From positions 1 through 35,304 of the IMG/VR virus record IMGVR_UViG_3300048592_000094: DNA of 35,304 bases; one strand, written 5' to 3'. Shown piece after piece: positions 191 through 35,167 of the stretch. The translations under genes were made by a program, and so were the position numbers. Under the pieces are notes generated by a model. It saw nothing but the letters and a program-made list of their open reading frames with translations, was not told the origin of the DNA and made no database searches. The first letter of the stretch is position 1, and each line of letters starts with the position of its first letter. The DNA is from a virus.

Positions 191-221
191 TTGACACGGG
201 TAGCGTATGGCGTAGTACACT
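191..221 (+). promoter_or_regulatory. probable sigma70-type rightward early promoter
   Basis: There is an exact -35 consensus TTGACA at 191-196. The best -10 is TACACT at 216-221 (4 of 6 matches), at a long spacing of 19 bases; a 16-base spacing would use TAGTAC. Transcription would begin close to 228, just before the structured RNA and the rightward gene string. The -10 assignment is uncertain. Confidence 0.55.
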
Positions 222-233
222 TCGTTCGTCACT

Positions 234-330
234 GTGTCGGCAGGGACTGAAGCCACTGGCTTCCGCTCACCCCGAGAGGGGGTTCCCGCCGACACGGGGA
301 CGCGAGTGGAAGCCAGTGGCTTTTGCTTTT
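234..330 (+). ncRNA. structured leader or small RNA with two alternative folds
   Basis: Read as RNA, 234-295 folds as a three-way junction. P1 has 12 pairs (234-241 with 288-295 and 243-246 with 284-287, A242 bulged). P2 is GAAGCC-ACU-GGCUUC (249-263). P3 is CCCC capped by a GAGA tetraloop of the GNRA type (270-281). A further hairpin, P4 (309-323), with the inverse loop AGU, is followed by a U-rich run. Because P2 is itself a palindrome and P4 is its reverse complement, 249-268 can instead pair with 304-323 over 20 unbroken pairs including two G-U. That pairing competes with P2 and P4 and pseudoknots with P1. It sits directly downstream of the strong -35 box. An open frame crosses it (GTG 234 to 527), but the dense base pairing makes RNA the better reading. 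Family not recognised. Confidence 0.55.
304..330 (+). terminator. possible intrinsic terminator or attenuator
   Basis: A short GC hairpin (309-314 with 318-323) is followed by TTTTGCTTTT. The stem is weak alone, but the 20-pair alternative stem (249-268 with 304-323) would end at the same U-run and be strong. It could separate a short leader RNA from the genes downstream. Confidence 0.4.
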
Positions 331-571
331 GTCCTGTGACTGGACGGCCCGCTATCTTTGGCTTGATACGTTGGGTGGGGCCGTCGAGAGAATCTGCGCT
401 ACCGAACGGGGTAAGCCTGGCAAAGCGCAGCGGTCTGCCTGAGTTGACCGAGCCAGGGGAAGCAGCGAATTCAGGGCGTTGCGCTCATCCGCACTGGGTG
501 TTGCATGGCGCTGAACCTCACCAATGACGGGCGGGGTTTAGCGACGCATTGGCTAAACCGCTTGGGTGTTC
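331..571 (+). other. non-coding, highly foldable stretch ahead of the HNH gene
   Basis: There is no convincing gene, but stems are dense. GACGGCCC 343-350 pairs with 378-385 (8 bp). CTGCGCT 394-400 pairs with 424-430 (7 bp). Loop bases 416-421 (CCTGGC) match 452-457, a possible pseudoknot. CGCTGAACC 509-517 can pair with 535-543 (9 bp, one G-U), and this excludes the hairpin 535-542/552-559. Together with 234-330 this makes about 330 nt of structured RNA directly before an HNH endonuclease gene. Family not recognised. Confidence 0.45.
535..559 (+). other. hairpin just upstream of the HNH start codon
   Basis: GGTTTAGC (535-542) and GCTAAACC (552-559) form a perfect 8-bp stem with a 9-base loop, 12 bases before the ATG at 572. 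The left arm can alternatively pair with 509-517. No T-run follows, so it is more likely a translation-control or RNA-element stem than a terminator. Confidence 0.5.
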
Positions 572-1186
572 ATGAACAACAAGAAACTAACCGCCAACAA
601 CTCCAAGTTTTTCTTAAAGACAAGGCTTGGTTATGCAGCGCGGATTGGTGTTCGACATCGTGTCTTGATCGCAAGGGCACTAGAAGCTGACGGAAAGAGG
701 CGCGCATCTGGTCAGTCGGATAGGCAGTTTGCTAACGCGCACTTTGCTTACATCGTCGAGCAAAACGCGAACGCAAAACGCGAACACCCTAGACTTTTTG
801 ATGCAGAAAAACCTGCACGACGCACTGCAAAAGGCGCCAGCAAGGCGCCTCCACATGGTTCCTACCATGGCGACGTAAACGGACCAGAGTTCCTCTCGTC
901 CTACCAGTGGCGGACCTTGCGCATGAAGGTCTTGACCCACTACGGCCCGAAGTGCATGTGCTGCGGCGCAACGCCGCAGACTGGTGCGGTCATGAACATT
1001 GACCACATCAAGCCGCGCCGGACTCATCCGCATCTGGCGCTTGACTTCGAGAATCTCCAAGTTCTCTGCCATGAGTGCAATCACGGCAAGAGCAACTGGG
1101 ACACTACCGACTGGCGCCCGGTGGCTGAGGAGCCGATAGACCCCGACGTTGCCGCCTTCATCCGTTCGATAGCCAGAGAGTCTTAG
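572..1186 (+). CDS. HNH endonuclease
   Basis: A 204-residue protein with a C-terminal HNH/McrA-type nuclease fold. WRTLR near residue 113 leads into a cysteine cluster (C128, C130, C131). The catalytic DHIKP follows at about 144-148, then NLQVLCHECNHGKSN at about 161-175 with the second CxxC pair and the last HNH histidine. Such proteins cut DNA with a metal ion and in phages are often free-standing homing enzymes or packaging helpers. The first 95 residues are basic and unrecognised and show no RuvC-like motif, so this is not an IsrB/HEARO-type protein as far as I can see. I chose ATG 572; GTG 566 in the same frame is an alternative. Neither has a good ribosome binding site, and a hairpin lies just upstream. 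The gene stands alone behind the structured leader and its stop codon falls in a CTAGGG-like palindrome. Confidence 0.85.
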   Translation: MNNKKLTANNSKFFLKTRLGYAARIGVRHRVLIARALEADGKRRASGQSDRQFANAHFAYIVEQNANAKREHPRLFDAEKPARRTAKGASKAPPHGSYHGDVNGPEFLSSYQWRTLRMKVLTHYGPKCMCCGATPQTGAVMNIDHIKPRRTHPHLALDFENLQVLCHECNHGKSNWDTTDWRPVAEEPIDPDVAAFIRSIARES

Positions 1187-16521: not shown

Positions 16522-17087
16522 TCGCAGACCTCGGAGCGTATTTGCAGGATTGACCCGATGCGGGATGCAGTTTCGGCCTCCATGACGCGACCGACGGCTG
16601 CAATGTATTCGCCCGCCATCTGCTGCGCCATCGCGTCGTCGCGGGTATAGATGGCGGCCTGCTTCAGGGCGCCAAACAGGTACACATCAGGCGCATTCGT
16701 CAGCAGCCAATTCGTATCACCATCGGCAGACAGCGCATCGAAGGCTGCCCAGTAGTCAAGCTGGTAGTCGCCGGCCGCGCTGTAGAGCGTATCGCCGATG
16801 ATCGTGTAGCGGTACTTGCCGCTGTTGTCGTTATAGGTGTGCCACTCCTGAGGCGGTGAATACAGCAGCGGAATGTCGCCTATGATGAACTGCCGCACCT
16901 GTATGAAGTCATCGCCTAGCGTGATCGTGCCCGTCGTCGTGCCCGTATCGCGCGTCTCCATCGCTCGCACTCGAACGGTGCGCCGAATGTCGGCTTCGGC
17001 AAGCGTGACGAACGTCGGGATAACGGTAGACAAGTCCTCCCGATGCAGCCAGGCCGCGATGTTTGACTTCAGCTGTCCGTAGTTCAT
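16518..17087 (-). CDS. head-tail adaptor (gp4-like)
   Basis: A 189-residue protein. ATG 17087 overlaps the methyltransferase stop (ATGA); the frame is open further upstream but that part is a shadow of the methyltransferase. The start MNYGQLKSNIAAWLHREDLS and the following IPTFVTLAEADIRRTVR, MET and a Tyr-rich beta segment match adaptor proteins of the P22 gp4 or T7 gp11 type. Twelve copies of such an adaptor extend the portal and receive the nozzle. It directly follows the cargo block, so the structural operon resumes here. Confidence 0.75.
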   Translation of the reverse strand: MNYGQLKSNIAAWLHREDLSTVIPTFVTLAEADIRRTVRVRAMETRDTGTTTGTITLGDDFIQVRQFIIGDIPLLYSPPQEWHTYNDNSGKYRYTIIGDTLYSAAGDYQLDYWAAFDALSADGDTNWLLTNAPDVYLFGALKQAAIYTRDDAMAQQMAGEYIAAVGRVMEAETASRIGSILQIRSEVCE

Positions 17088-22398: not shown

Positions 22399-23337
22399 CT
22401 ATCCTTTCACGATTCGATTAAGGAGCGCGGCGGCGACATCCTGGCGGCCGGTTTTCTTCAACGCTGACCGCTGTTCGTTCCACCGCGATTGTTCATTGCT
22501 CGGCGCCGTAGAGCGCGCCGCCGGCTGCGCTGCCGGTCGCGCCTGTTGCGCCTTCTTCACCGCCGCGGGCTTGCCACTCTGAAGAGCCCGCCACTTCGCC
22601 GCATCCGCTAGCGCATGAATAACAACCGGGTCCATCAGGTGCGATTCCTGCATCCCGTACTGCCGGGCTGCTGTCATCAGCGTTTCCCGCATCTTGTCAT
22701 CCAGCTTTCCGATTCGTCGCTGCACCTCGGCCATCCCCAATTCCGCCTGATTGCGGGTATGTTGGACTTTGGCGTCTTGGGCCTGCTTGACGATCTGCTG
22801 TAGCCGATACTGCTTTTCCGTCAGCCGCTGGTGAAGCTGCTGCCGGGCTAGATTTAGCTGCAATGCCTTCTGCGCATCCTCGGCGACGAGTGAGTTCCAA
22901 TCCAGCGCGTCGAACTGCTGCAACTGCGCTTGAATGGACTGCACTTCCGCCGCATCAGAAAATGCGTGCTGAAGGATCAGCTCTTGGGCTTCGAGATACT
23001 GCTTCTTGTCCTCAACGATGCGCCGGGTATCGGCCACATCCTGGGTTTTGCGCGTGTAGTCGGCTTGGAGAGAATCGGCCTTCTTGACGACTTCGGCTAG
23101 TTCCTTCGGCAGCTTGTATTGCTTGTCGCCGTAGGTAACTTCCTCGGAATCATCCTCTGGCGCTGGCTCACTCTCGCCTTCCTCGACTTCATCGTCGTCG
23201 CCATCTTCGTCCTGTTCCTCTTCAACAGCCTCATCGACGACTTCTTCGTCGTCCTCTGGCGGCGCAGTGAACAATGCTGCAAGACGATCGGCCGGATCTG
23301 TCCCCACTTCCTCGACGGGATTGGTGGTTTCTTCCAT
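22399..23337 (-). CDS. capsid scaffolding protein
   Basis: A 312-residue protein, ATG 23337 after AGGAGAG. The first 65 residues are extremely acidic (runs of Asp/Glu such as EEEQDEDGDDDEVEEGE). Residues about 75-220 form a long helical, Gln-rich coiled coil, and the C-terminal tail is basic (SRWNEQRSALKKTGRQD), which suits binding to the inner capsid surface. It is placed immediately before the capsid gene. This is the classical scaffold position and composition. No protease motif is visible. Confidence 0.82.
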   Translation of the reverse strand: MEETTNPVEEVGTDPADRLAALFTAPPEDDEEVVDEAVEEEQDEDGDDDEVEEGESEPAPEDDSEEVTYGDKQYKLPKELAEVVKKADSLQADYTRKTQDVADTRRIVEDKKQYLEAQELILQHAFSDAAEVQSIQAQLQQFDALDWNSLVAEDAQKALQLNLARQQLHQRLTEKQYRLQQIVKQAQDAKVQHTRNQAELGMAEVQRRIGKLDDKMRETLMTAARQYGMQESHLMDPVVIHALADAAKWRALQSGKPAAVKKAQQARPAAQPAARSTAPSNEQSRWNEQRSALKKTGRQDVAAALLNRIVKG

Positions 23338-35123: not shown

Positions 35124-35139
35124 CTAGGGCAAACCCTAG
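35124..35139. promoter_or_regulatory. palindromic operator-like site upstream of the leftward promoter
   Basis: CTAGGG-CAAA-CCCTAG is a perfect 6-base dyad. On the minus strand its centre reads TAGGGTTTGCCCTA, close to the copy at 1184-1198. It adjoins the -35 box of the leftward promoter and pairs with the site at 166-182. Confidence 0.6.
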
Positions 35140-35167
35140 GCTTTGGTGTTATGCGGCAGATGTGCGC

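Follow-up and report, generated by a model that had tools for sequence, protein, structure and literature searches.

The put RNA of phage HK022 consists of paired hairpins without a terminator and is folded directly after an early promoter, and the CI RNA of satellite P4 and the c4 RNA of P1 are short structured RNAs of early-operon leaders that pair with a second site in the leader. RCd22, the abiF RNA (RF03085) of a C. difficile prophage, is a non-coding RNA of ~100-130 nt with its own promoter and a Rho-independent terminator that permits partial read-through (PMC12373285). GOLLD and ROOL are large structured phage RNAs of unknown function that are rich in kissing loops; GOLLD often exceeds 800 nt, its 3' part being conserved and its 5' part variable (PMC12286853).

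Here we describe a structured phage RNA that, judged from sequence comparison, fits no catalogued family and of which the shape, not the sequence, is kept in dozens of phages. In functional layout it comes closest to RCd22/abiF, as a promoter, a terminator and read-through are all predicted for it, but it does not match the RF03085 model, it has one pseudoknotted core in place of the two abiF motifs, and an HNH endonuclease rather than an abiF gene lies downstream. Like GOLLD and ROOL it is phage-encoded, structured and furnished with putative kissing loops, yet there is no Rfam match to either of them, and what the new family shares is a 5' core, the whole measuring roughly 370 nt. With HK022 put it has in common that it is folded immediately 3' of an early promoter, although its fold differs, the pseudoknotted core being built on a 20-bp stem that leads into a U-run. 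Finally, it resembles P4 CI and P1 c4 as a short structured RNA with complementary segments in an early-operon leader, but has a different fold, and no second target was found in the genome. A screen against Rfam, which the initial annotation had proposed, was carried out with 4227 families of Rfam 15 on the locus and 13 homologous loci, and none reached its gathering score; the sub-threshold matches were only miRNA- and snoRNA-like and due to chance, and skipping-rope and other Rfam RNAs were considered likewise without a match. No description of this RNA was found in the open-access literature.

The RNA core and its genomic setting

The window, i.e. the whole stretch of DNA analysed (35,304 bases), is an entire IMG/VR record of a phage infecting bacteria. 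Its minus strand carries the portal and TerL genes, its plus strand small early genes, an ERF recombinase and a CII-like protein. The structured RNA at 234-330 precedes the plus-strand genes, right after TTGACA-16-TAGTAC. The features are as follows, L090 being a sibling phage and L093, L095 and L235 further relatives:

191-221, plus strand: predicted sigma70-type promoter, -35 TTGACA at 191-196 and -10 TAGTAC at 213-218 or TACACT at 216-221
228-340, plus strand: P0, candidate closing helix of the read-through RNA, 228-232 with 336-340 and 241-247 with 331-336 (prefix fold to 345)
232-243, plus strand: H1, 5' hairpin CUG[UGUCGG]CAG, read from the sequence, with equivalents in L090, L093 and most relatives
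234-295, plus strand: P1, pseudoknot or kissing helix, 234-241 with 288-295, extended by 243-246 with 284-287 (folding, relatives)
249-323, plus strand: S, long stem, 249-268 with 304-323, 20 pairs, covariation in 20/20 pairs
270-281, plus strand: P3, inner hairpin CCCC[GAGA]GGGG with GNRA tetraloop, kept in L090, L095 and L235
282-301, plus strand: P5, inner hairpin GUUCCCG[CCGACA]CGGGGAC, a covarying helix, arranged alike in L090 and L093
321-330, plus strand: U-rich run UUUUGCUUUU directly 3' of S, intrinsic-terminator-like (sequence, relatives)
333-565, plus strand: counterpart by position of the relatives' 3' domain, without sequence match and of ordinary folding energy
566-1186, plus strand: HNH endonuclease ORF, first gene 3' of the RNA, missing there in L090

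The initial annotation had placed a structured RNA directly after the promoter at 234-330. This was borne out by a minimum free energy of -64.4 kcal/mol for 230-335, compared with -40.4 +/- 4.1 for shuffled sequences (z -5.8, 0/200 shuffles), and by the TTGACA-type promoter upstream; the coordinates of every element that it named were found to be right. Its 12-bp closing stem P1 does contain 12 pairs, but is interrupted by a bulged A242, and the duplex of 249-268 with 304-323 is, as proposed, continuous over 20 RNA pairs, including two G.U, and leads into UUUUGCUUUU. The palindromes GAAGCCACTGGCTTC and GAAGCCAGTGGCTTT occupy 249-263 and 309-323, respectively, and no further copy of GAAGCCACTGGCTTC occurs elsewhere in the window. 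New in comparison with that annotation are the hairpin H1 and the complementarity of its loop to CCGACA (289-294), the loop of the hairpin 282-288/295-301; H1 itself probably lies near the transcript start, which, from the position of the hexamers, would be expected at ~226-230. The promoter is identical in L090, and the homologues possess -35/-10-like hexamers with the -10 end mostly 6-9 nt 5' of the H1 hairpin (mean promoter score 9.1/12 vs 6.6 shuffled); a strict promoter scan of the window detected none.

Two further kinds of repeats were observed around the locus. An inverted repeat, CCGCCACGGC/GCCGTGGCGG, lies 5' of the promoter at 63-116 and is perhaps a terminator or a control site of the divergent region. 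Palindromes of the type TAGGGnnTnnCCCTA, probably phage repressor operators, are repeated at 167-181 and 1184-1198, and by eye also at 2252-2268 and 35124-35140; there are 2 exact matches vs 0.12 expected by chance, each palindrome being listed on both strands. One of them is situated just 5' of the RNA promoter and another exactly where identity with L090 resumes.

This sibling, a 38,438-bp contig from a TerL search, is 97-98% identical to the window across most shared sequence and runs contiguously over the two ends of the window, which must therefore have been cut within this intergenic region. Identity is 89% over 132-215 and about 98-99% from 1181 on; in between, 216-1180 of the window and 4847-5275 of L090 form an exchanged block, bounded by the promoter and the operator-like palindrome, which comprises the RNA and the HNH gene on the window side and lacks HNH in L090. 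A BLAST comparison of the two cores gave no match, the sequences being too diverged. The L090 core nevertheless keeps the architecture of the window, with P1 (GUGCCAGC/GCUGGCAC), P3 (CCC[GAAA]GGG) and a 19-bp stem followed by UUUUUU, and between the two phages pairs have changed on both sides at 9/20 positions of the long stem and 2/8 of P1. On these comparative grounds we regard the identity of 234-330 as an RNA as settled.

A family of relatives with crossing helices

Covariance-model, descriptor and pattern searches uncovered homologues at more than 50 loci of IMG/VR phages, as well as in the GenBank phage MW202825, nearly all of them on metagenomic contigs. A covariance model built from two sequences only, window and L090, recovered L093 (E 5.6e-8), L235 (2.6e-4) and L095 (0.0015), and a five-sequence model (R2) brought L088, L111 and L099 into the family; for R2 the sequences were N-padded, two bases were masked in each of L093 and L235, and three bases in the tail of the window row were altered, which kept MAFFT in register. 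The pattern of the 5' hairpin, GTTGGYNTSGAARCCGAC, together with a tighter version including the pseudoknot partner, yielded 51 stretches in viral contigs, a type of search that favours the GUUGG subtype. By script, the long stem was found at the expected position in 51/52 extracted pattern matches, with L404 below threshold. In MW202825 (Manatee Spring, circular) the core crosses the record ends within a stretch without annotated gene and has AUCG[UGUGAGAG]CGAU paired with CUCUCAC.

Other searches were less productive. A BLAST search of a phage collection gave no match for the window, and one named phage was reached via L334. The H1-pseudoknot pattern was absent from 399 + 398 bacterial genomes (797 in total), and a TerL search of bacterial genomes returned 4 weak loci, all without the RNA. 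Scanning viral contigs for the 15-mer palindromes gave 85 stretches, mostly judged to be chance, and the true homologues were found otherwise. L170 and L172, matched along with the sibling by the pattern CCCGARAGGGG..CGCGA, had no R2 match and were judged unrelated; the match in L172 (1141-1170 of a 180-kb contig) is a chance one within an apparent 14/16-bp stem, without a match to the family model.

The fold is conserved on the plus strand. In an alignment of 38 rows, fitted to the structure of the model and containing about 35 true rows besides a few off-strand or chance ones, 30/32 pairs have changed on both sides and 94.2% of the cells are paired, and the covariation score of 0.605 compares with 0.180 +/- 0.011 for shuffled and <=0.123 for slid alignments. 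The long stem S covaries together with its two inner hairpins; it is weak at one conserved place, 8-9 pairs away from the inner end. The P1/pseudoknot helix is paired in 30/30 non-redundant relatives, with switches from G-C to C-G and from G-C to A-U, some but not all of its positions having been preset by the tighter search pattern. Covariation had been proposed as the check for P1, the hairpins P2/P4 and the 20-bp stem: it is present in P1 and the stem, but P2/P4 are specific to the window and are no conserved hairpins, as the stem arms of the relatives are not self-palindromic. Going by the sequences, P2 and P4 exist only since the S arms of the window happen to be palindromic.

The same data bear on the notion that the elements act as DNA, the two palindromes being repressor operators and the RNA fold a by-product. 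A pair of 15-bp palindromes that closely follow a promoter and are spaced by 60 bp would suit such operators; in the relatives, however, the stem sequence changes nearly everywhere with pairing kept, the plus strand tolerates G.U where DNA would have a mismatch, and the palindromes are confined to the window. As the main explanation this notion, scarcely credible in our estimation, is refuted by the covariation. Nor did we find the conservation of codons in the open frame 234-527 that would have spoken against an RNA: its product has no recognisable counterpart in the tested relatives and the homologues differ by indels, and the frame was rejected as a gene.

The core has a common order, namely promoter, H1, 5' arm of S, one or two hairpins, partner of the H1 loop, 3' arm of S and U-run. 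H1 takes the form UCUG[UGCCAG]CAGA in L090, CGAUG[UGCGUG]CAUCG in L093 and GUUGG[..]CCGAC in most relatives. Its loop partner is the P5 loop in the window, in L090, in L093 and in the second copy of the L292 phage, and a strand adjoining the 3' arm of S in most other relatives. As read from these sequences, P1 is thus a pseudoknot or kissing interaction between the 5' hairpin loop and the strand just 5' of the 3' arm of S. The initial annotation had P1 and the 20-bp stem as mutually exclusive; this holds for the order of folding (see below), but both helices are conserved and cross each other, and a P1 core of 6-8 bp may coexist with S as a pseudoknot or loop-loop kiss, a state that the energy model excludes. 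The L292 phage (record G066) carries two cores on opposite strands (16719-16813, minus; 22578-22675, plus), one of the loop-loop and one of the loop-strand type. In L095 (1555-1656) the H1 loop CUACCA and the P5 loop CUACUA are nearly identical, not complementary, and hence do not kiss inside one molecule.

Folding order, predicted termination and the sequence beyond the U-run

Folding of successively longer prefixes under a non-pseudoknotted energy model indicates two alternative folds sharing strands, as had been suggested. For the window, the P1 fold is the minimum for transcripts ending at 296-312 (-46.4 kcal/mol at 303) and S replaces it from 316 on (-65.4 kcal/mol at 324). Across the family, a P1-type helix is part of the minimum in 24/33 prefixes that stop short of the 3' arm of S, and S is formed in 33/33 complete cores. 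A succession of folding states during transcription is therefore likely under this model. P0 is weakly indicated by the window itself; in relatives, P0-type pairing reaches a mean helix score of 7.47 vs 5.46 for shuffled sequences (maximum 6.08), and the equivalent in L090 pairs GUCUGUG with UACAGAC.

The terminator-like tail of the initial annotation is present as well, in the form of a GC-rich stem followed by a U-run (249-330), and at least 4 U stand at the end of S in 26/30 relatives. A simple terminator scan of the window detected none, because the stem encloses two hairpins; from its sequence, the RNA probably ends in a built-in intrinsic terminator. This ending bears on a put-like action, in which the RNA would bind RNA polymerase so that later terminators are ignored. 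The folded RNA does lie near the 5' end directly after an early promoter, and no protein resembling the N antiterminator was noticed in the set scanned, but the fold is unlike the paired hairpins of put and ends in a terminator-like stem and U-run, and the sequence lacks the conservation that a polymerase-binding surface would suggest; we consider such an action very unlikely.

In most relatives, about 250 nt 3' of the U-run are conserved too, in several 3' types. The helices of the alpha type covary, yet its folding energy is not unusual. The 3' stretches of the window and L090 do not match the 3' domain of the relatives, and their folding energies correspond to z -0.58 (not unusual) and z -2.87 (unusually stable), respectively; a conserved 3' RNA domain at 333-565 of the window is thus not supported, for want of homology and given this z value. 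In L111, L099, L350 and L366 the U-run of the core is separated from the conserved 3' domain by an inserted ORF (MEGE...).

The genes that follow encode, besides HNH and ERF, terminase small-subunit-like, ParB-like, cytosine-methylase-like, adenine-methylase-like and PAPS-reductase-like proteins and an apparent replication protein, most names having been assigned by reading N-termini. Since the downstream genes vary among phages, the RNA does not appear to serve any single gene as its leader. The attenuator or riboswitch-like leader of the initial annotation would be a cis-acting device in which the P1 fold and S exclude each other and a ligand, a protein or the speed of the polymerase determines whether transcription continues into the early operon. 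In its favour, P1 forms first and is displaced by S in folding of the growing transcript, and the RNA of the window heads a plus-strand operon carrying the ERF recombinase. Against a gene-specific device of this kind speak the changing next gene, the ~250 nt of RNA conserved past the U-run in most relatives, and the putative sensing parts, which have no sequence conservation; a riboswitch should combine a conserved sensing core with a consistently regulated gene, but here the stem sequence varies and the genes are diverse. We hold attenuation in cis to be unlikely. A type III toxin-antitoxin RNA was rejected, as the window has a single core, no repeated units, and unrelated genes behind it.

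Hypervariability of the locus and its possible role

Between near-identical sibling phages the RNA locus alone diverges, the flanks remaining similar and the fold being kept. L397 and L403 are mostly 95-100% identical from -200 to +480 and 45-72% in the core; L264 and L386 are 88-98% identical upstream, 35-80% from +1 to about +360 and 90-100% beyond; and L341 and L381 have 65-90% in the core and mostly 90-100% in its surroundings. The block exchanged between window and L090 is the same phenomenon. Behind such localised divergence lies either a recurrent swapping of modules or selection that favours new sequence while the old shape is retained.

A pattern of this kind could point to an immunity RNA resembling P4 CI or P1 c4, which as a short RNA would pair in trans with the same core in the nascent transcript of an entering phage and force termination, hypervariability setting the specificity. 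The confinement of divergence to this locus with the fold retained, as well as the mutually complementary arms of the core, are consistent with it. However, no second target site was found elsewhere in the window, the palindrome occurring only inside the core, although the arms of the core may themselves be acted on in trans; the phages are possibly virulent, the H1-pseudoknot pattern brought up no prophage copy in the 797 bacterial genomes, and recombination hot-spotting alone could account for the divergence. Immunity of this type therefore appears decidedly unlikely.

The explanation that we favour, and regard as reasonably probable, is that a gene for a phage non-coding RNA, belonging to a new family, has its 5' core at this locus, with its own promoter, a leaky intrinsic terminator, read-through tuned by P1, and an independent product. 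Transcription would start a few bases 5' of H1. As the RNA emerges, the H1 strand would pair first with the strand 284-295, giving P1; once the 3' arm 304-323 has emerged, the 20-bp S would form, ending exactly at the U-run. Most transcripts would stop near 330, leaving a stable, compact pseudoknotted RNA of ~105 nt. The P1 or kissing contact would either be retained as a pseudoknot or slow the formation of S, and in this way set how often the polymerase reads through into a longer RNA, of which the 3' part is conserved in most relatives. The varied neighbours suggest that the RNA itself is the functional product rather than the leader of a particular gene.

More speculatively, these loci could represent a widespread, uncatalogued class of phage RNAs with a fixed fold and sequences diversified module by module, serving in trans as self/non-self determinants through the kissing loop and terminator stem. 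We think this quite unlikely; if true, it would amount to RNA-based immunity or counter-defence.

The locus adds to the known phage RNAs a family with dense covariation, at a time when most large phage RNAs have no assigned function. Its fixed fold and hypervariable sequence pose a testable question, namely what selects for a changed RNA sequence but a constant shape, and with its predicted terminator and its helices that cross, it offers a small system in which to examine co-transcriptional folding.
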